Assembly (NCBI GenBank): GCA_958295775.1
Contig: CATQHC010000009.1
Coordinates: 868,001 to 932,000 of the forward strand
Reading direction: 5' to 3'
Source: Chloroflexota bacterium
Lineage (GTDB): Bacteria > Chloroflexota > UBA11872 > VXOZ01
Length of the DNA stretch: 64,000 nucleotides
The translations under genes and the position numbers were made by a program. The notes under the pieces are model-generated. The model worked only from the letters and a program-made list of their open reading frames with translations. It had not been told where the DNA came from and searched no databases. Below are positions 12,259 to 62,492 of this stretch, one piece after another (positions within the stretch are counted from its first letter, which is position 1; each line of letters opens with the position of its first letter).

Positions 12259-13098
12259 ATGGTGTCTGGCGCCTCCGATGCCGCTAACCACGTCTATCGT
12301 GCGGAGATTACCAATGCCCTGCTAGAAGGAGGTGTGCAGTGCGGCGACACGGTGATGTTCCATAGCTCAATGAGCAGCATGGGGTGGGTCGTGGGCGGCG
12401 CGGACACGGTGATCGATGGCTTCTTGGAAGCAGTGGGCTCCAGCGGCACGGTTGTCGTGCCCACGCTCTGCCGGATGCCGCCTGATGAGCGGCACCTGAC
12501 GTTCGACCGCTGGAATATAGATACGTCCGTTTCTTGCGTCGGCCGTATTACGGAAGTGCTGCGGCACTGGCCCGATGCCGTGCGCAGCGATCATGGGACG
12601 CACTCAGTGGCGGCCATTGGCCCGCGCGCGCGGGAACTCACAGCAAATCACGGCGCGGCGGGACTGCGGCTGGGCCCGTGGGGTCCGCGCGCCTTTGCGC
12701 GGGAGAGCCCCTTGCAGAGATTTTATGACTGGAATGTAGCGTATTGCTTTCTGGGGGTGAATTTTCACTTCAATACTATGGTGCACCTGGTGGAATCTAT
12801 GCTGGTAGGCCGCGCCCTGCAACGAGCGGCGCCGGAGCAGCGTGAGGGTTTGGCAGCGCAGATTACGGATTGGCAGCAGCCGGGCGTGTGGCCGAGCATC
12901 GGGATTGAAGCGCGGGAAGCAATTGAGTCGTTTCTCGCGGAGCAGGGGGTGCTAGAGTACGGCAAGATCGGCGCGGCAACTATCCGCTGCACCCGCGCCC
13001 GGCCCATGGTTGACCAGTGGTTGGAGCTTGCCGAGGCTGATCCGCCACGTTGGTGCTCGGGGCCGTTCGTGCAGTGGCTCGGGCAGATAGACGCGTAA
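12259..13098 (+). CDS. Aminoglycoside N3-acetyltransferase (AAC(3)) family protein
   Basis: The 279-residue product shows the features of the antibiotic NAT fold. These are FHSSMSSMGWVVGGADTV near residue 35, GTVVVPT, HSVAAIGPRA near residue 120 and GVNFHFNTMVHLVE near residue 175. The family uses acetyl-CoA to acylate amino groups. Classical members inactivate aminoglycosides, but many chromosomal members such as YokD-like proteins have other or unknown substrates, and genomic context here gives no hint of resistance. The ATG at 12259 follows AGAGGAAGC. Length matches the family. It converges with the methyltransferase gene at 13112, the stops being only 13 bases apart. Confidence 0.85.
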   Translation: MVSGASDAANHVYRAEITNALLEGGVQCGDTVMFHSSMSSMGWVVGGADTVIDGFLEAVGSSGTVVVPTLCRMPPDERHLTFDRWNIDTSVSCVGRITEVLRHWPDAVRSDHGTHSVAAIGPRARELTANHGAAGLRLGPWGPRAFARESPLQRFYDWNVAYCFLGVNFHFNTMVHLVESMLVGRALQRAAPEQREGLAAQITDWQQPGVWPSIGIEAREAIESFLAEQGVLEYGKIGAATIRCTRARPMVDQWLELAEADPPRWCSGPFVQWLGQIDA

Positions 13099-29081: not shown

Positions 29082-29188
29082 TCTCAGTTCATTACCCAAA
29101 CCGCTCGTGTGACGTTGACAACCCAGTGAAATCCGCGCTACCGTGAAATAGGCACCTCATTGGTCCTCCCACTGGAGCATCCTTTCCC

Positions 29189-30076
29189 ATGGCACAACCC
29201 TCCCAGGTCTCCAAGGCCGTAATTCTCGTTGCCGGTTTGGGTACCCGACTCCTCCCTGCCACTAAGTCTCAGCCCAAAGAGATGTTGCCTGTCGGCCGCA
29301 AGCCGGTGGTGCAGTACGTGGTGGAAGAGATGGAGCAGGCCGGTATCAACCAGGTACTCTTTGTAACCGGCCGCAAGAAGAGCTCCATCGAAGACCACTT
29401 CGACCGCGATCCCGAACTGGAAGAACGCCTGGGCAGCGACGACCTGGAGTTGAGCGACAGGCTGCCAAACTTCGATACCTTGCTCCACGTCTTCTACACG
29501 CGCCAGAGCGAGCAGACCGGACAGGCGGACGCCGTGAATCTCGCGCAGGAGTTTGTCGGCGACGAGCCGTTTGTTGTGGCATTTGGCGACACGATCATTC
29601 GCGGAGGCAACCTGGTGCGCCGCATGGTGGCAAGCCACCGGCAGAGCGGCGCCGTGTGCACCATGGCCGTTGAGCAAGTAGCGCCTGAAGACGCACACCG
29701 CTACGGCGTCGTGATGCCGAAGGACGGTCTGGGAGCGGATTTTGCCATCGAGGGGATTGTGGAAAAGCCGTCGCGCGGCACCGAGCCCAGCAACTTCGCG
29801 GTGGTGCCGCGCTATGTGATGAATAGTGAGATCTTCGAGGCGATACGGCTGACGCTGCCCGGCAAGGGGAATGAGCTCTGGCTCGCCGACTCTATCGAAG
29901 TGCTCATCAAGCAACAGCAATTGGTCCGTTGCCTGGCGCTAGCGCCCGAGGAGGTCCGTTACGACATTGGCAATTTCGAGACCTACTTCAAAGCGTTCAT
30001 AGACTTTGCGCTCTCAGACGAGAAATACGGCTATCTCGTGCGGCAACACTTGATGCGTAAAGCGGCATCGTTATGA
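29189..30076 (+). CDS. galU: UTP--glucose-1-phosphate uridylyltransferase
   Basis: The 295-residue product makes UDP-sugar from sugar 1-phosphate and UTP. It shows VAGLGTRLLPATKSQPKEMLP, the nucleotide-binding loop of bacterial GalU, then the YVVEEMEQAGI, FVTGRKK and EKPS segments. Length matches the family. GGAG lies eleven bases before the ATG at 29189. The stop overlaps the ATG of the GHMP kinase gene (ATGA at 30073-30076), so the two form an operon. Together they suggest that a sugar or uronic acid is phosphorylated at C1 by the kinase and then uridylylated here. Glucose 1-phosphate remains the default substrate of GalU. Confidence 0.92.
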   Translation: MAQPSQVSKAVILVAGLGTRLLPATKSQPKEMLPVGRKPVVQYVVEEMEQAGINQVLFVTGRKKSSIEDHFDRDPELEERLGSDDLELSDRLPNFDTLLHVFYTRQSEQTGQADAVNLAQEFVGDEPFVVAFGDTIIRGGNLVRRMVASHRQSGAVCTMAVEQVAPEDAHRYGVVMPKDGLGADFAIEGIVEKPSRGTEPSNFAVVPRYVMNSEIFEAIRLTLPGKGNELWLADSIEVLIKQQQLVRCLALAPEEVRYDIGNFETYFKAFIDFALSDEKYGYLVRQHLMRKAASL

Positions 30077-31140
30077 CACCTTCCGCTACTGGAGACACGC
30101 CGCGGGCAACGGTGGTTGCCTCCGCGCCCGGTCGCTGCGGCATCATCGGCAACCCCACGGATATGTACGGCGGCAATGTGCTCTCGTGCACCATTCCCGA
30201 GCGCGGCTATGTTGCAATTCGCCCCGCCGATCGGCTTACCCTTGAGTCCGACCAAGGCGTGGTAACCGTGCGCACCCGCGACGACTTGCAGCAGCGCGGC
30301 GATCACTTCGACATTTTACGCGCGGTGGTATCCCAACAGCAGTGCCTGGGCATGAATGCGCACTTCAAGTGCTGGAGCGACGTGCCCATCGGCTCCGGCC
30401 TCTCAAGTTCTTCGTCGCTGGTCGTTGCCGCGCTGTACGCGCTCTTGCGCTATCAGGGCCGCAGCATGAATCGGTACTTCTTCGCGGAGACTGCCCGCGG
30501 CATCGAACTCAACGATATGGGCGTTACCTGCGGCTACCATGACTTCTATATGCCGGCGTTCGGCGGGCTCAACTACATGGACTTCCGTGACAAAGAATTC
30601 TACCGGGAAGTGCACAGCGAACCGTATGCCTGTGTGGAACCGCTGGCGCCGCTGGTTGATGAGTTGCCCTTCGTGTTGGCGCACACCGGCGTCGAACACC
30701 GCGCGGGCGTCGTCCATACACCCCTCCGCGAACGCTGGCTGGAAGGTGAGCGTACGGTGGTGCAGGCATATGACACAATTGCGCGCCTGGCGCGAGAGGG
30801 CAAGAAGGCGCTGCTGGAAGCCGACTGGGTGCGCCTGGGCAAGCTGATGAACGAGAACCACGCCATTCAACGCGACCTTGGCGGCTCAGGTGAGGCTAAC
30901 GAAGTGCTCATCAAGGCCGCGCTGGACAACGGCGCGCTGGGGGCCAAACTGGCCGGCGCCGGCGACGGCGGCACGATCATCGCGCTCCACCCGCAGCCGG
31001 AACACCTCGGTACTCTACTCAGAAATGCCGGAGCCTCCCGCATCCTTGAGATGCGTCCTGTCGAAGGCGCGCGGCTTGAAGAACCCACACAAATAGCTCG
31101 GTCTGATGTTGCCGGCTACTTTGCTGAAAGCGAGCGGTGA
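30073..31140 (+). CDS. GHMP-family sugar kinase, glucuronokinase-like
   Basis: The 355-residue product has the three GHMP motifs: GRCGIIGNPTDMYGGN near residue 20, the ATP loop PIGSGLSSSSSLVVAA near 105, and AKLAGAGDGGTII near 300. Recalled sequence of plant glucuronokinase resembles it in detail: GNPSDVYFGN against GNPTDMYGGN, and RQRWLDGDE against RERWLEGER, followed by a similar helical stretch. That kinase makes glucuronic acid 1-phosphate, which a UDP-sugar pyrophosphorylase then turns into UDP-glucuronate. Here the coupled gene is galU, overlapping by four bases. The assignment as glucuronokinase-like is an inference from motif likeness and pairing. A galacturonokinase, arabinokinase or other sugar-1-kinase remains possible. 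Confidence 0.75.
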   Translation: MTPSATGDTPRATVVASAPGRCGIIGNPTDMYGGNVLSCTIPERGYVAIRPADRLTLESDQGVVTVRTRDDLQQRGDHFDILRAVVSQQQCLGMNAHFKCWSDVPIGSGLSSSSSLVVAALYALLRYQGRSMNRYFFAETARGIELNDMGVTCGYHDFYMPAFGGLNYMDFRDKEFYREVHSEPYACVEPLAPLVDELPFVLAHTGVEHRAGVVHTPLRERWLEGERTVVQAYDTIARLAREGKKALLEADWVRLGKLMNENHAIQRDLGGSGEANEVLIKAALDNGALGAKLAGAGDGGTIIALHPQPEHLGTLLRNAGASRILEMRPVEGARLEEPTQIARSDVAGYFAESER

Positions 31141-31210: not shown

Positions 31211-32041
31211 ATGCATAAGTTGAGCTATCCAAAGCGTCATCACTATATTCCAGCTATGTTGTCTAGACGATTTACTAATCAAGAGGGGAAGTTATACTTC
31301 TTCGATAGACGTTGCGCGGAACGTGGAGTCCTAGTGTCAACTCCGAAGAATCTCTTTGTAGAAAGCCATTTGTATACAACAGTTGACAGCAGTGGCAACA
31401 AGAACGTGGAAGTGGAGGAATCGCTTGCAATTCTTGACGGACAGGCTAGCAAACTCATCGCTAAGATCGTTAACGCTGCTCGGGAACTAAAGACACCCAA
31501 TCTGACGCAGGATGATAAGACGGCTTGGTGGGAATACTTCTATATACAATGGTGCCGAGTGCCAGATGTAGGTGAGCAAATCGCCTCTGAAGTGGTTTAT
31601 GAGGAATTGGTAAATCAGCATCTAAGAGAGTTAGTTGGGAAGAAAGAGCTGAACAGGATCACTAACAATGCTTGGGTAGAAAGCAAACTCAATCCGGGGA
31701 AGGAAGTACACCCTATTTTGATGAAGAAGGGACTAGGGGTTGTAGTCGCTCAGGACTTGCAAATCAACTTCATTGTTGGAAGCCATCCTATGGTGAAATT
31801 TGCGCACCCTGGTCGAGCACATCTTGCCAATCCAAGTGTTGAAATCTGGTTCCCACTTGCTTCCGATGTAGCAGTTTCCCCCTTTGCTGGCGAAACTGAG
31901 AAGCTGGTTCTAGTGGATGACAAAACCGTTCGATCCATCAACGAATCCATCTCGAAACAGAGCACCGTAATTGCTGGCTGCTCTCGTGAGTTGGTCTCAT
32001 CATTCGCGAGCCTGGATACGCAGACGTCAATACAAGGCTAG
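31211..32041 (+). CDS. DUF4238 domain protein
   Basis: The 276-residue product starts with KRHHYIPAMLSRRFTNQEGKLYFFDR, the hallmark of DUF4238 proteins, whose function is unknown. It contains a helical middle (WWEYFYIQWCRVP), a later NFIVGSHPMVKFAH and a final part like FPLASDVAVSPF. The gene is clearly more AT-rich than neighbours, with frequent AGA and TTA, which suggests transfer. DUF4238 genes are often found in variable genomic islands and near defence genes, though the role is not established. A TTG at 31220 with AAGGA about ten bases before is an alternative start to the ATG at 31211. It lies between the galU operon and a toxin-antitoxin pair. Confidence 0.8.
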   Translation: MHKLSYPKRHHYIPAMLSRRFTNQEGKLYFFDRRCAERGVLVSTPKNLFVESHLYTTVDSSGNKNVEVEESLAILDGQASKLIAKIVNAARELKTPNLTQDDKTAWWEYFYIQWCRVPDVGEQIASEVVYEELVNQHLRELVGKKELNRITNNAWVESKLNPGKEVHPILMKKGLGVVVAQDLQINFIVGSHPMVKFAHPGRAHLANPSVEIWFPLASDVAVSPFAGETEKLVLVDDKTVRSINESISKQSTVIAGCSRELVSSFASLDTQTSIQG

Positions 32042-41714: not shown

Positions 41715-44700
41715 CTATTTGTGCTCAACGCGGTAGATTGTTACTCGCTCGTTGCGGTAGACCGGGGCAATCCCAAATTCGCTCATCAGCTCAAACTTGC
41801 CCAGGCCCGGACCCTGATAGTAAGCGCGTTCCAAGTCACCCAGGTAGACATAGTCCACGCCGTACTGGCGGAGCAGTTTGAGCGTCAGGTCATAGTCCGC
41901 GGTCTCGTAGATCGTTTGGATATCCAGCTTCCGTTGCTCGATCATAGGGCGGTACTCCCAGCGCTGGAGCCATTCATGAGAATCCCAGCCCAGCACCGTA
42001 GGCAAGCCGGTGTGGATGCTCACGCGCGCTCCCCAACGAAAATACGGGATGGACGCCTCCAGCACCGTGGGCGTGCCGTCAATGTTGTCTTGCAGCCAGT
42101 GGATTGCCTCCAGGTCCCATTTGAGCGGGATTTCCCGGTCCTGATCGAATATCACGCCTTCCCGCATGAAGGCCGTGCCGTCCAACGTCACGAGATCCGG
42201 CACCAATCGCTGCTGGGCGCGGTGGGGAATTGCCGAGAGCGGATAGAGGAGGGCCAGCAGCACGAGCAGCGCCCCTACCGGCAAGAGAAAACGCCGGAGG
42301 CGCGCCTGTTGCCACAGCAACGGCAGCGTCGCCGCAGCCGCCAATGCCAGCAAATTCCAGGCTTGCAGGTAGAACTTGAACACGGTATTCATGCGCCCGA
42401 CGTCGCCGTCGATGGCGAAGAACTCAGGGAAGATGCCCAATACCGCCGCCAGCGCCACCATGCCGGCCAGCAGGCGGGTGGGGAGCCTCGCGGGAGAACC
42501 CAACGCAACCAACAACGCCAGCAGGATGGTGATTTCCAGCAAGAGCACGATCGGCCGCTGCCACAGCACGCTGGCGAGTACAATCTGCAGCACTGACAGG
42601 ATGGCAATTAGGCGGACATCGAACGCAGCCCGCCACCGGTACAACTCCCGCACCAGGAAGATGGCAACGAAGAAGAGCGACACCCCGTGAATTACGAGAT
42701 ATTGCCACAGCGGAGTTTGATCTTCAATGCTCCGCACGCCGAGGAAGAATGACTGGTAATTGTCGAGGTACGAACCGAAGGCCATTCGCCCGACAAGGTA
42801 GAGACCGACTGCGGCTGCGACCACACGTACCCTTGCCGGAATCTCAAAGCGGATAAGACCGCGGCGCTCAACTAAGATCACTGCCCCTCCGAGGAGCAGG
42901 GCATAGGTGGGATAGTCCCAGGTATTCGCGGTACGCAAAAAGCCCAGCACAAAGCCGCTAAGCAGCAGCAGGGGCAAGGTGGGAAAGCGCAGCAACGGGC
43001 GCAGCCACTCGAGAAGCGTCGGGCCGGAGCTCCGCACTCTCTCGATGGGATTGAGGTGGTAGCTCAAGACAAAGGCCAGGGCAAGCACCGGTATCACCAT
43101 TGTGAAGGGCAACGCCAGCACGTGAGGATGCAAATCGCCGTAGAGAAATGTGAAAAACGGGAACTCATGGATTGCGCCTTCGATCAGGCGCGTGCTGTGC
43201 CAGTAATCGAAACCCGGCGGCGGTTCGGCTCGCAACAGGTTGCCCGCGGTTTGCCCCAGCCAGTCCCAACCGGCACGCAGGCGGTTCGGTCCCGCATTCG
43301 CCGCCAGCCGCGTGAACCATTGCACCGCGCCGTCCAGGTTGCCGAGAACGGTCACGAGGACGATGGCGCCGACGCCGGCGAGCAACCGCATGTTTCGCGA
43401 CGCTGTGCGCCACACGGTGCACCCAAACGTGTAGACATTTGCCGCGAGCAGGGCCGCCACCAACGGCACGACCAGGTTGTAGGCCACCGACGGCACTATG
43501 CCCAGCAAGCGAATTAACGTGCCGAACACCTGGTGCCCCATGTAGTAGTAGTTGATGTAGCCTCCCGCAAACCACGGGTCGTACGGCGGGTACTGTCCGG
43601 CCTTGATGAGCGCGTTCATGTGGGCAAAATCCATGGGCTTCTCGCCGCCATAGAAAGGATGCCAGAGATCGGGATTCGTGAGGCGGACCCACAGAAAGAA
43701 GAGGAACGTACCGGTGAAGACCACCTCGCTGAGAACGATTTCGGTGCGCTGAACTTTCAGGAAGTGCACGAACCGCTGCCAGGTGCGGCGCAAGACCCAG
43801 GCGCTTGCCGCTGCCAGCAGCGCAATTGCAAGCCACGTGGACGCGCGGCCGGCCGCGAGTACGCCGCTGTTTGCCAGCCACCAGGAAATGTAGGCAACCG
43901 CCAAGAGCGCGATGCTCTTCGCAAGCAGGTAGCCACGGTCAGGAGCCATAGGTAAAATATGCCAGAGCAGCGGCCAGGCGAGCCAGCCCAGCATCAGCAC
44001 CGCCAGCCACCAGACCAGCCACGGCACGGCGTTAACGATGCTGCCACGCTCAAAGTAGCCCGACCACGTGCCGCCTGACCGGACGCCGCTGCTTTGTGTT
44101 CCGTCGAGCAAGAGGCCGTTGTAAAGGAGTTGCCGCGGCGAGAGCGTTTGGGGCAGCGCGGACAGGTGCGGCTCAAGCAAGGCGCGCAGCCGTTCTTGGT
44201 CGTAGCGATCGGTCTTTACGAAGAGATGGACCGTCGGGTGGTCAAAGACGAGAAAGTTCTCTTCTGCTTTGCTATCGTCAATTTCCCAGCCAAAGAGCCG
44301 GGGGAAGTGCGTGAACGTGCGCACGGGGGCGAAGCCAAGTTCACCGGCAAAGAGGTGACGGTAATACTGCGACATCATGGGGAAGCGCGCCGGAAGCTGC
44401 TGTATCACACCATGCGTACGCCCGCTGCTCACGACGATGTAGTCCGTTTGGTGGAGCGCCGCCAGCAGTTGTTCTAGTTTTTCCGGTGTATCCGCGCCAA
44501 ATACCTGAAGCTGCACGTATTGATAGCGCTCCGGCGCGCGTTCCTGTCCGGGCAGGCGCAGCGGCAGCGCGTCGTCCCAGTGCTCTTCCGCCAGCACCGC
44601 GCCGGCCGGGACGTTCTGATAGATCCACTCGCTGGCGCGCACCCGCGACACCGGCTCCGCGTAGATACGAGTAAACGCAAACGCCCACGCCAACGCGCCC

Positions 44701-46076
44701 AGCAACACGAATGCGGCGAGGCCCATTGCGGCAAGAGGCAGCACGCGCCCAACAAGTGGATTACCGCTTAGGTGGGAGACGCGGGCCAGCGGTCTTATGT
44801 GTCGCAGCCAGGCATGCGCGTCTCCCCGAGCGATCTGATAGACAAGCCAGCAGAGGAAGACTCCCCCCATCACGGCGAGGGCCGGATAGATCGGCAGAAA
44901 ATAACGGCCGGGCCGCGCGAACTGCGCAGCCTGGTACAAATAGAGCGTTAGCACCCACAGCACGACAGGCGCGAAGACCAGATTGCTGTGCCGCACCAGT
45001 TGCCAGATGCCCCAAATCACTCCCAGCCACGCGACGGCAGCAAAGGCCCAACCCATTTCCCATCGAAACATCTGTTCTAAAGGAAACAGCGCGTAATTGA
45101 CCGTGGACCAACTGTACGCAGGCGGAAACTCCGCATCTCCGCTCGCGAGAAAGCGCAGGGTCTCGATATCCTGCGCATAGCGCGGATTGAGCCGCGGATC
45201 CCACCAGGAAGCAGATGCGAAAACGTAGGGCACGCAGAGGCGGAGCACACCATACACGAGCACGCCGCCGATGATAAGGCGGCCGCCGAGGCGCGCGACT
45301 AGCTGGTGAGTGATGACAAAAGCTGGCGGCCGCATCTCCCGCCATGCCCGCAGCAAAAACGCAAAGCCGATCGGCACCGCCAGCGTCGCCACGCCCAGCT
45401 TGCTCGCCAGAGCCAAACCGGCAACAAGGCTCACGCCGGCCAGATCGTACCAACGACCCTCTTCCTGCCAGCGCAGCGCCCACCACAGCGCAAGGGCGGC
45501 AAAGAACGTTACCCAGGTGTCGGTAGTGTAGAAGTGCGCTTGCTGGATCGCCTGCACCGCACAGGCGTAGAATGCGGCGGCGAGGGCTCCTCCCCAGCGC
45601 CCGCCGAGTCGCCGTCCGATGAGAAAGACAAGCAGAATCGTAAGCACATCCAACGAGGCCGTAAGGTACCGGCCTACCAGGTCTATGCCGTCGTAGGCAT
45701 CCTTGTCCACGATGCCGGCCGCGGCCTTGGTGATGAATACGGGCAGCGTGCCGTAGACGAACGAGCCAATGCCTTGGTTATAGGGATTGAGCGGCGAGGT
45801 TTCCGTGTCGAAATATTGCGATAGTGAGTCCGGCCACTGAATCTGTGCCGTCGTTATCGTGATATGGCGTTCATCCGGATGGAGGTGTGTGCTATTGTCC
45901 CAGTCCAAGCCGGTGAAGCGAAACCATGCGCCAACCAGTACGGCCAAGGCGAGCAGCAGCCACGGTCCGTGCCGTGCAACCTCAGCGAAGTGCAGTGAAG
46001 GTGTTCGCCGTGTGAGAGTCGGCTCCGGGGAGTGCTCACCTTCGGGTACTGTTGCAGTTGTCGTGGGATCGCTCAT
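41715..46076 (-). CDS. Giant integral membrane glycosyltransferase: GT39 (PMT-like) fused to DUF2298
   Basis: The 1453-residue product joins two membrane parts. Residues about 40-640 are GT39/PMT-like, with WDNSTHLHPDERHI near residue 75, the Asp-Glu pair of this family, and many hydrophobic helices. Residues about 770-1440 are the DUF2298 (Chlor_Arch_YYY) type, with YGGEKPMDFAHMNALI, YDPWFAGGYINYYYMG and about a dozen more helices. GT39 members transfer sugars from polyprenyl phosphate on the outer membrane face; DUF2298 proteins resemble the same fold and are uncharacterised. The stop and start of the GT4 gene overlap it (46073-46076), so both are one transcript. The product probably decorates lipids, proteins or glycans of the envelope. 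Confidence 0.9.
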   Translation of the reverse strand: MSDPTTTATVPEGEHSPEPTLTRRTPSLHFAEVARHGPWLLLALAVLVGAWFRFTGLDWDNSTHLHPDERHITITTAQIQWPDSLSQYFDTETSPLNPYNQGIGSFVYGTLPVFITKAAAGIVDKDAYDGIDLVGRYLTASLDVLTILLVFLIGRRLGGRWGGALAAAFYACAVQAIQQAHFYTTDTWVTFFAALALWWALRWQEEGRWYDLAGVSLVAGLALASKLGVATLAVPIGFAFLLRAWREMRPPAFVITHQLVARLGGRLIIGGVLVYGVLRLCVPYVFASASWWDPRLNPRYAQDIETLRFLASGDAEFPPAYSWSTVNYALFPLEQMFRWEMGWAFAAVAWLGVIWGIWQLVRHSNLVFAPVVLWVLTLYLYQAAQFARPGRYFLPIYPALAVMGGVFLCWLVYQIARGDAHAWLRHIRPLARVSHLSGNPLVGRVLPLAAMGLAAFVLLGALAWAFAFTRIYAEPVSRVRASEWIYQNVPAGAVLAEEHWDDALPLRLPGQERAPERYQYVQLQVFGADTPEKLEQLLAALHQTDYIVVSSGRTHGVIQQLPARFPMMSQYYRHLFAGELGFAPVRTFTHFPRLFGWEIDDSKAEENFLVFDHPTVHLFVKTDRYDQERLRALLEPHLSALPQTLSPRQLLYNGLLLDGTQSSGVRSGGTWSGYFERGSIVNAVPWLVWWLAVLMLGWLAWPLLWHILPMAPDRGYLLAKSIALLAVAYISWWLANSGVLAAGRASTWLAIALLAAASAWVLRRTWQRFVHFLKVQRTEIVLSEVVFTGTFLFFLWVRLTNPDLWHPFYGGEKPMDFAHMNALIKAGQYPPYDPWFAGGYINYYYMGHQVFGTLIRLLGIVPSVAYNLVVPLVAALLAANVYTFGCTVWRTASRNMRLLAGVGAIVLVTVLGNLDGAVQWFTRLAANAGPNRLRAGWDWLGQTAGNLLRAEPPPGFDYWHSTRLIEGAIHEFPFFTFLYGDLHPHVLALPFTMVIPVLALAFVLSYHLNPIERVRSSGPTLLEWLRPLLRFPTLPLLLLSGFVLGFLRTANTWDYPTYALLLGGAVILVERRGLIRFEIPARVRVVAAAVGLYLVGRMAFGSYLDNYQSFFLGVRSIEDQTPLWQYLVIHGVSLFFVAIFLVRELYRWRAAFDVRLIAILSVLQIVLASVLWQRPIVLLLEITILLALLVALGSPARLPTRLLAGMVALAAVLGIFPEFFAIDGDVGRMNTVFKFYLQAWNLLALAAAATLPLLWQQARLRRFLLPVGALLVLLALLYPLSAIPHRAQQRLVPDLVTLDGTAFMREGVIFDQDREIPLKWDLEAIHWLQDNIDGTPTVLEASIPYFRWGARVSIHTGLPTVLGWDSHEWLQRWEYRPMIEQRKLDIQTIYETADYDLTLKLLRQYGVDYVYLGDLERAYYQGPGLGKFELMSEFGIAPVYRNERVTIYRVEHK

Positions 46077-47278
46077 TCCGTCCCTAGCTCTTGGCTTCCT
46101 GCCTCAGTTGTAGCTGCCAATTCAAATGTGCGGTCGTCTGCGGCAAGCTTGTTCGAGCGATACAGTTCCTCGTGCAGATCGACGGTGCGCTCGTAGTCAA
46201 AGACACGGGCAATCTTGCCTCGAGACATTGCATACGAATTGGGGCTTTCCAGCACCGCTCGCAGCGCCTCCGCGAGTGCCGCGTTATCGCTGGGCGGCAC
46301 AATGCGCCCCATGCCGGTCAGTCGCACCGCCTGCCGACAGCCGGGAATATCCGAGGCAACCACCGGCGTGCCCGAGAGCATTGCTTCTACCTGCACAATG
46401 CCAAATGACTCCATCGGGTTAACACTCGGCAACGTGAGGACGTCGCACGCAGCATAGAAACTGGCAAGCGCCCTCCCCTCCTGATGCCCGAGAAGCACAA
46501 CGCGATCCCCAAATGCCTCCAGTTGGGGACGCAGGCGCCGGTAATAGCTCTCACCAATAACATTGCGGTACTCTCCCGCAATCGCGAGCCGCACATTGGG
46601 CATGCGGCGTTGCACAGCGGCAAAGGCTGCAAGGAGTACATGCAGTCCCTTTTGTTCGGCAAAGCGACCCGCAAACCCAATGAGCCGCCCATCGAGCGCG
46701 TACGCTTCGCGAAAACCAGCTATGTCTGACTCTGTGGCAGCCGCTACCGTGACCGGGGGATGGATGACAATTGCTTTATCTAGGAAGTCGGCTAACAGAT
46801 ACGAGTTTCGGGCAAAGTCCCACGTGTAAGAACACAGCCAATCAGCGCGTCGTGCCGCAAGGCCCTGCATCACGTTGACTACCGTGCCTGCAATGCGATT
46901 GATAAGTCCCGCAGGCAGATAGAGGTCGGTATGTACGGTGAGAATGAGCGGCCTGCGACCGCGATTCACAAGCGCCGCATACGCTGCCTCCAAGAACGGG
47001 AGATGAATGTGGACCACATCATGAGTCTTTAGGTACCGGCCGAGCACCCCAAAGAGTGCAGGCATCACCGGCCCTTTGCTGATGCGCAAGAGGACGGGCA
47101 AGCGTATGATGCGAACGCCTTCAAGCCATTCCTCCTCACTCAGTCCGGGTTGGTGGCGTGATGTCAATACCGTAACTGCATGCCCCCGCTGCACCAATCC
47201 CCGCGCGACCCGGTGCATGTACGCCGTAATGCCGCTGCTGTGCGGCAAGTAGTAGGTTGTGAGATAAAGTATGCGCAT
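46073..47278 (-). CDS. Glycosyltransferase family 4 protein
   Basis: The 401-residue product has a GT-B fold of the GT4 family. The N-terminal domain starts MRILYLTTYYLPHSSGI with the acceptor-side glycine-rich loop. The C-terminal domain has LIGFAGRFAEQKGLHVLL and the donor-site segment PSVNPMESFGIVQVEAM, whose E-x7-E pattern binds the nucleotide sugar. The enzyme transfers a sugar to a lipid or glycan acceptor on the cytoplasmic face. Its stop overlaps the start of the GT39-DUF2298 gene by four bases, so they work as a pair. The tail, after about residue 370, is rich in Ala/Glu/Thr. No signal peptide is present. Confidence 0.92.
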   Translation of the reverse strand: MRILYLTTYYLPHSSGITAYMHRVARGLVQRGHAVTVLTSRHQPGLSEEEWLEGVRIIRLPVLLRISKGPVMPALFGVLGRYLKTHDVVHIHLPFLEAAYAALVNRGRRPLILTVHTDLYLPAGLINRIAGTVVNVMQGLAARRADWLCSYTWDFARNSYLLADFLDKAIVIHPPVTVAAATESDIAGFREAYALDGRLIGFAGRFAEQKGLHVLLAAFAAVQRRMPNVRLAIAGEYRNVIGESYYRRLRPQLEAFGDRVVLLGHQEGRALASFYAACDVLTLPSVNPMESFGIVQVEAMLSGTPVVASDIPGCRQAVRLTGMGRIVPPSDNAALAEALRAVLESPNSYAMSRGKIARVFDYERTVDLHEELYRSNKLAADDRTFELAATTEAGSQELGTE

Positions 47279-61353: not shown

Positions 61354-62492
61354 ATGGCTGAATGGCTAGGTATCGGTCACCTTTTCGAGCTTTCCCGGAC
61401 GGAAGCGCTATTGGGGTTTTCACCCCGCTGGCGATCTTCGCCCTGTTATTCCTGGCGCAGCTCATCCTGCCGGGCAGGCGGGTTACCGGCTACGTCATCA
61501 ATCCGGAGACCGGCGAACCCCGCAATTATCGGCTGAACGGTATACTGGTGTTCGCCATCGCACTGATCGTGTAATCGCTCGAGCTTACCGGCATGCCGCG
61601 TGACTGGTTCTACCGGTCCGCCATCTACGCGTTGGCCGGCGGTACGGTCTTTGCCGCGATCTTCACACTCATAGCGGTGTTTAGCCAGCCCCAAGGCGAG
61701 ACAAAGAACCTGATCGCGGCCTTGTGGCTGGGTCGGGCACAGGAACTGCAATTCTTCAACAACCGTGTTGACGTGAAAATGTGCTTCTACGTTGTCGGCG
61801 GCACGATGCTGTCGCTCAACGCCTTGTCCGGCGCCGCGTACCACTACGAACGCTTTGGCGACAACTTCAATCCGGGCGTGTTCCTATTCGCGGCATTCAT
61901 GACTTTCTACATTTTGGATTACTTCATCTTTGAGCGCGTCCAACTCTATACCTACGACTTGATCCACGAGAAGCTGGGCTTCAAGATGTTCTGGGGTGCC
62001 CTCATCGTGTACGGGTGGCTGTATACCCTGCCGCTGTGGGGCATGGCCGTGCATCCGCATCCCGGCTTCTCGACGGCCTGGACGAATGTGTGGCTGATCG
62101 GTTCAGTAGCGCTGTTCTTTCTCGGCTGGACCATCACCCGCGGCGCCAACATGCAGAAGTACACGTTCAAACGCTGGCCCGACCGCAAGTTCCTCGGCCT
62201 TATCAAACCGGAGTACATCGAGGCCGGCGACCGCAAGATCCTGTGCAACGGTTTCTGGGGCCCTGCCCGCCACTTCAACTACCTGGGCGAAGGATTCCTT
62301 TCCTTCTCAATCGGCCTGGTGTTTGGCTACTTCACCAATCTCTGGGCGTGGACGTACTTCATCTTCATCGTCACCATCTTCACCCTGCGGCAACGTGAAG
62401 ACGAAGAGCAGTGCGAGAAGAAATACGGCGCCGAAAAGTGGGCGGAATACCGGGCACGGGTGAATTACCGCATCTTTCCCGGCATCTATTGA
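61354..62492 (+). pseudogene. Sterol reductase (ERG4/ERG24) family gene, broken by frameshift and stop
   Basis: The reading frame for an ERG24-like sterol C14/C24 reductase is interrupted twice. It starts at ATG 61354 (AGGAAGGGG upstream) as MAEWLGIGHLFELSRT. It must shift by minus one at a GGGGTTTT tract near 61413-61420 to continue as FTPLAIFALLFLAQLILPGR. A TAA at 61572-61574 interrupts that frame. The rest, an intact open frame from ATG 61593, contains the typical membrane segments, NGFWGPARHFNYLGE and RQREDEEQC then EYRARVNYRIFPGIY, the C-terminal signature. One sequencing error per lesion is possible. If real, the gene is inactive or only the C-terminal part is made. Confidence 0.7.

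Follow-up and report, generated by a model that had tools for sequence, protein, structure and literature searches.

Two overlapping genes in the 64,000-nucleotide stretch of Chloroflexota DNA analysed here (the window) probably form a salvage operon that would convert glucuronate to glucuronate-1-phosphate and then to UDP-glucuronate, leading on to UDP-xylose in the genus to which the window belongs. The kinase would phosphorylate free D-glucuronate at C1 in an ATP-dependent reaction, the coupled nucleotidyltransferase would combine glucuronate-1-phosphate and UTP to give UDP-glucuronate and pyrophosphate, and in this genus, where a UDP-glucose dehydrogenase was not found, the product would feed at least UDP-glucuronate decarboxylase (UXS). 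We infer glucuronate, and not a different uronic acid, as the substrate, C1 as the site of phosphorylation, and a preference of the nucleotidyltransferase for the resulting product. The clade in which the kinase falls, the conserved pairing, the uronate operons in relatives and the presence of UXS without a dehydrogenase together make this the best reading. The initial annotation had suggested a bacterial two-gene route of this kind, and that suggestion gains from all four lines; its arguments from a KdgD and a Gfo/Idh/MocA enzyme in the window fell away.

The gene pair

The genome from which the window derives is 3.4 Mb and 95 % complete. The features of the pair are as follows.

29174–29177, + strand: GGAG, Shine-Dalgarno-like sequence 11 nt before the nucleotidyltransferase start
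29189–30076, + strand: GalU-like nucleotidyltransferase of the kinase-coupled clade, 295 aa, proposed glucuronate-1-phosphate uridylyltransferase
30073–30076, + strand: ATGA, four-base overlap of stop and start codons
30073–31140, + strand: GHMP kinase of the glucuronokinase-like family, 355 aa, proposed to convert glucuronate to glucuronate-1-phosphate
30148–30177, + strand: GNPTDMYGGN motif, kinase residues 26–35, replacing GEHTDY of galactokinases and GGGTD of heptokinases
30727–30753, + strand: RERWLEGER motif, kinase residues 219–227
30955–30975, + strand: GAGDGGT, glycine-rich C-terminal GHMP motif, kinase residues 295–301

The four-base overlap of a GalU-type gene with a GHMP kinase gene, as originally described, is the ATGA above, and the two genes are likely to be translationally coupled through it; the overlap is equally tight in the nearest loci (L022–L024). 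The three kinase motifs quoted at that time, including the GDGGT loop, are all found in the translation. Pfam models above cut-off were NTP_transferase (123 bits) for the nucleotidyltransferase and GHMP_kinases_N, GHMP_kinases_C and GalKase_gal_bdg for the kinase. The pair is preceded by a creatininase family gene and followed by a DUF4238 gene, neither of which is in the conserved unit. The DUF4238 gene (31211–32041) lies directly 3′ of the pair, where the local GC content falls from approximately 0.62 to 0.47, and this stretch is possibly a foreign insertion.

Elsewhere, the window includes genes for an aminoglycoside 3-N-acetyltransferase family protein (12259–13098; Antibiotic_NAT, 150 bits), a 1453 aa protein that combines DUF2298 with a PMT_2 mannosyltransferase domain (41715–46076) adjoined by a glycosyltransferase (46073–47278), and an ERG4/ERG24 sterol-reductase family protein (61593–62492; 117 bits), the last in a Chloroflexota genome.

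The kinase appears to belong to a glucuronokinase-like family

Scanning of the GTDB species genomes for relatives of the kinase found 238, and the 80 that were kept come from the Chloroflexota, Latescibacterota, Armatimonadota, Gemmatimonadota, Planctomycetota and Sumerlaeota, with one assigned to the Bacillota. The family signature is GNP[ST]DxYGG together with RxRWxxG, and both GNP[ST]D and RxRWxxG were found in all 81 family sequences (80 relatives and the window kinase). RxRWxxG was absent from every galactokinase, HddA, mevalonate kinase and galacturonokinase tested and, among the tested GHMP kinases outside the family, only the Arabidopsis glucuronokinase includes both motifs. The Arabidopsis glucuronokinase and galacturonokinase reference sequences used here are provisional and unverified.

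When an HMM of the family was run against 16 references, the provisional Arabidopsis glucuronokinase was the top match at 147 bits, followed by a heptokinase-like protein at 127 bits; the provisional plant galacturonokinase scored 25 bits. In the reverse search, with the provisional glucuronokinase as query, family members scored up to 116 bits and the best heptokinase-like protein 26 bits, and galactokinases were not among the matches listed. A maximum-likelihood tree, as the initial annotation had called for, placed the provisional Arabidopsis sequence, which was the sole eukaryotic glucuronokinase reference and has a long branch (3.9), on the family side of a branch with 99/96 support, and the galactokinases, heptokinases and mevalonate kinase on the opposite side. 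The motifs and the separate tree clades speak strongly against the kinase being a galactokinase, heptokinase or mevalonate kinase. As the plant references are unverified, the grouping with glucuronokinase counts as a strong lead and not as a proven result, and on that condition the kinase appears to be a member of a bacterial glucuronokinase-like family.

Searches against general models and structures gave less specific matches. No NCBIfam model matched the kinase above cut-off, the best being mevalonate kinase, galactokinase and HddA models far below threshold (at best 100.5 of 443 bits for the galactokinase models, and 83.7 of 600 bits for HddA model NF049969). The solved structures closest by sequence were a heptose kinase (3k85, E 4e-22) and mevalonate kinases, and identity to the solved heptose and mevalonate kinases in the fold comparison was approximately 24–25 %. 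That comparison confirmed the GHMP kinase fold (TM approximately 0.66–0.78) and gave no clue to the substrate, as mevalonate kinase, heptokinase and galactokinase were matched alike; a search of the structure library found no chain named glucuronokinase.

The pairing is conserved across phyla

A nucleotidyltransferase from one distinct clade is found upstream of the kinase in 65 of the 80 loci, and these span at least five phyla (Chloroflexota, Latescibacterota, Gemmatimonadota, Planctomycetota and Sumerlaeota). In 62 of the 65 it is directly upstream, with a gap of no more than 139 bp, and the other three (L036, L091 and L097) have one intervening gene. Because this order recurs in so many loci from other genomes, the pair is more than a chance juxtaposition, and the pairing first noted in the window proves to be widely conserved. 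The gene between the two in L036, L091 and L097 is a response-regulator/histidine-kinase gene. No fused nucleotidyltransferase-kinase polypeptide was seen among the loci read; a 795 aa open frame in genome G009, considered as a fused pair, is merely an over-long frame.

In 11 loci (L037, L038, L040, L041, L042, L051, L053, L060, L062, L068 and L069), a gene for a xylose-isomerase-like TIM barrel protein (PF01261, no NCBIfam match) lies directly upstream of the nucleotidyltransferase gene, and its product may be a third pathway enzyme.

The kinase of the Armatimonadota loci has no nucleotidyltransferase partner, and the coupled nucleotidyltransferase is also absent from some f2 genomes that have the kinase. 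In three of the Armatimonadota loci (L050, L064 and L101), the glucuronokinase-like kinase follows the heptose genes HddA-GmhA-GmhB. The f3/g5 genomes have a UDP-glucose-type dehydrogenase, and their only GalU relative is the coupled nucleotidyltransferase which, hence, probably also makes UDP-glucose there. Taken with the loci and genomes that have only the kinase, this indicates that the nucleotidyltransferase may be broad in specificity and that the kinase may sometimes use an ordinary GalU.

The coupled nucleotidyltransferases are distinct from GalU

The product of the upstream gene had been identified as a GalU-type uridylyltransferase. It is a nucleotidyltransferase of the GalU type but not a canonical GalU, as it scores 258.9 bits against TIGR01099 (galU; cut-off 326.8 bits) and the coupled nucleotidyltransferases form a clade of their own. 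The same genome encodes a second, more canonical GalU which, at 325.6 bits, is just under the cut-off. In a tree that included 10 canonical GalU sequences, the coupled clade was split with 100/100 support from the canonical GalU paralogues of the same class and from E. coli GalU.

The coupled nucleotidyltransferases retain the Mg-binding Asp, the Gly of YGV, the Glu and Lys of EKP and the nucleotide-binding residues. Three sugar-pocket positions (E. coli GalU numbering) are altered in all 63 sequences: Pro136 is replaced by Gly; Asp at position 138 (Val in E. coli) by Ser, Thr or Ala; and Gly216 by Ala or Pro. In the window's enzyme the three residues are Gly133, Thr135 and Pro207. Asp38 is also replaced by Arg in 57 of the 63. 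Position 138 corresponds to Asp134 of YngB which, with Gly172, Glu191 and Val204, is a predicted glucose contact (PMC7961091). Loss of an acidic side chain at this position would suit a sugar bearing a carboxylate. The three changes, together with the separate GalU in the window's genus, suggest that the coupled enzyme is specialized there.

Uronate genes lie beside the pair in some relatives

In locus L049, the order is IolO-UxaC-UxaE-nucleotidyltransferase-kinase-D-mannonate oxidoreductase-HAD protein-LarA-like protein. IolO (5-keto-L-gluconate epimerase) is above cut-off, as are the glucuronate isomerase UxaC (521 bits, cut-off 387) and the D-mannonate oxidoreductase (386 bits, cut-off 281). 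UxaE matches PF16257 at 512 bits and a solved tagaturonate/fructuronate epimerase at 369 bits; for the LarA-like protein, the nearest model is a hexonate epimerase, below its cut-off. Parts of this arrangement are retained in L061, L067, L095 and L098, and in L091 and L097 a KDG-kinase-like gene and a KDPG-aldolase gene precede the nucleotidyltransferase gene. Loci with uronate genes beside the pair are a small minority of the 80, and many of these are related to each other.

In the window itself, KdgD and a Gfo/Idh/MocA enzyme had been taken as signs that uronic acids are available to the cell. The KdgD-like gene scores below cut-off for the KdgD models (258.6 of 278 and 242.5 of 374 bits) and is approximately 9 kb from the pair, and the inositol-dehydrogenase-like Gfo/Idh/MocA enzyme, at 122 of 355 bits for IolG, is also below cut-off and approximately 6 kb away, so neither lends support to this.

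A pathway gap in the window's genus

The textbook route to UDP-glucuronate in bacteria is the oxidation of UDP-glucose. No NDP-sugar dehydrogenase was found in any of six genomes of the window's genus, using a search that detected its positive controls; the best matches were 30 bits over short stretches, one of them to a hydroxyacyl-CoA dehydrogenase-like protein. All 35 other genomes of the class that were tested gave a strong match. The genus nonetheless has an SDR protein that matches human UDP-glucuronate decarboxylase (UXS1) at 373 bits, the next family being at 168 bits, and this UXS orthologue, encoded in genome G000 at C2:235914–236858, is present in all five of its near-complete genomes. 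Hence, no conventional enzyme was found in the genus to make the substrate of UXS, and this supports a pathway gap that the kinase/nucleotidyltransferase pair would fill.

It is quite possible, at slightly less than even odds, that in this genus the pair has replaced UDP-glucose dehydrogenase and that UDP-glucuronate, and through it UDP-xylose, is made from salvaged glucuronate alone. If so, the cell would depend on external uronic acid, perhaps from a host, for both; the isolate names of relatives suggest that the genus is sponge-associated. Within the genus, no UxaC gene was above cut-off, GH88 matches were all sub-threshold, and myo-inositol oxygenase, as a source of glucuronate, was not found in a search that had no working control.

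Genome G161 (99 % complete), from another family, also has the pair and lacks an NDP-sugar dehydrogenase; its kinase contig equals that of L060 in length. No UXS was found in the 1.87 Mb (72 % of this genome) examined, and the pathway-gap argument thus rests on one genus.

Alternative explanations

A broader route for salvage of UDP-sugars, in which a glucuronokinase or wider uronate kinase is partnered by a promiscuous UDP-sugar pyrophosphorylase, comparable to the USP of plants, that also uses glucose-1-phosphate, is a realistic possibility but is not the one we favour. It has the kinase step in common with the glucuronate salvage operon proposed above and differs in the second enzyme. The f3/g5 genomes, with a UDP-glucose-type dehydrogenase and no other GalU, are consistent with it, as is G161, the examined 72 % of which showed no canonical GalU, and the plant USP is broad (PMC3938481). 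However, the genus of the window retains a separate GalU of canonical type, and the sugar-pocket changes common to all 63 coupled nucleotidyltransferases suggest specialization. It is unlikely that the kinase instead uses another uronic acid or a hexonate (galacturonate, mannuronate or iduronate), with the pair making the matching UDP-uronate. The operons that include UxaC, UxaE and mannonate oxidoreductase are not specific to glucuronate but can also serve galacturonate, UxaE being the epimerase between tagaturonate and fructuronate, and C4 stereochemistry is not fixed by sequence alone. Against this, the provisional plant galacturonokinase is only distantly similar to the family (25 bits versus 147 for the provisional glucuronokinase), UDP-glucuronate is the substrate of the UXS found in the genus, and galacturonate is not accepted by the zebrafish relative (PMC3938481).

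The two remaining explanations concern the type of kinase. That it is an HddA relative with a role in surface polysaccharide synthesis, phosphorylating a heptose phosphate or a sugar like it, seems very improbable, though the heptose kinase 3k85 is its best solved relative by sequence and the Armatimonadota kinases come after HddA-GmhA-GmhB. A separate HddA is encoded in those loci, and HddA proteins have GGGTD but no RxRWxxG and form a clade apart (100/100); outside the Armatimonadota, no heptose gene cluster recurs beside the pair. Least probable of all is an ordinary Leloir-like pair for galactose salvage made up of a galactokinase and GalU. The GalKase_gal_bdg and GHMP domains of the kinase and its GalU-like partner would fit such a pair, but the kinase falls far short of every galactokinase cut-off, has GNPTD in place of GEHTD and is in a separate clade.

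Significance and comparison with known systems

A conserved two-gene route of this kind, spread over at least five phyla, would mean that bacteria share the final steps of the plant myo-inositol oxygenation pathway, would correct the annotations (GHMP kinase, GalU) of hundreds of genes and would give access to UDP-glucuronate in few enzymatic steps. It would also suggest an origin for the fused eukaryotic enzyme and supply partners for asking why the pyrophosphorylase domain of the zebrafish enzyme seems almost inactive.

HddA heptose kinases and galactokinases share the GHMP fold and the ATP site with the kinase but differ in their substrate-motif residues, lack RxRWxxG and form separate clades. 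Similarly, the coupled nucleotidyltransferase shares family, catalytic Asp, Glu-Lys pair and nucleotide-binding motif with GalU, GtaB and YngB (TIGR01099) but differs in its clade, sub-cut-off score, altered sugar pocket and fixed kinase partner. The Arabidopsis glucuronokinase (EC 2.7.1.43), again as the provisional sequence, is alike in having GNPSD and RxRWLxG, in being the best reciprocal HMM match and in falling in one clade with the bacterial family, and it differs in its low identity to that family and its long branch. In the plant, its partner is a broad UDP-sugar pyrophosphorylase and its substrate is supplied by myo-inositol oxygenase.

Another close parallel is zebrafish DrGKUP, a bifunctional glucuronokinase and putative UDP-glucuronate pyrophosphorylase, whose kinase accepted glucuronate alone among nine sugars tested and whose pyrophosphorylase domain was extremely weak in vitro; its authors list bacteria and archaea with the pyrophosphorylase only (PMC3938481). 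An N-terminal bacterial-type nucleotidyltransferase is followed in DrGKUP by a GHMP glucuronokinase, which is the same order, and the same activities, as proposed here, except that DrGKUP is one fused polypeptide and the window has two overlapping genes. No report of a bacterial glucuronokinase was found in the openly accessible papers searched. Taken with the zebrafish comparison, this points to a eukaryotic salvage route in bacterial form, split over two genes, rather than to new chemistry.
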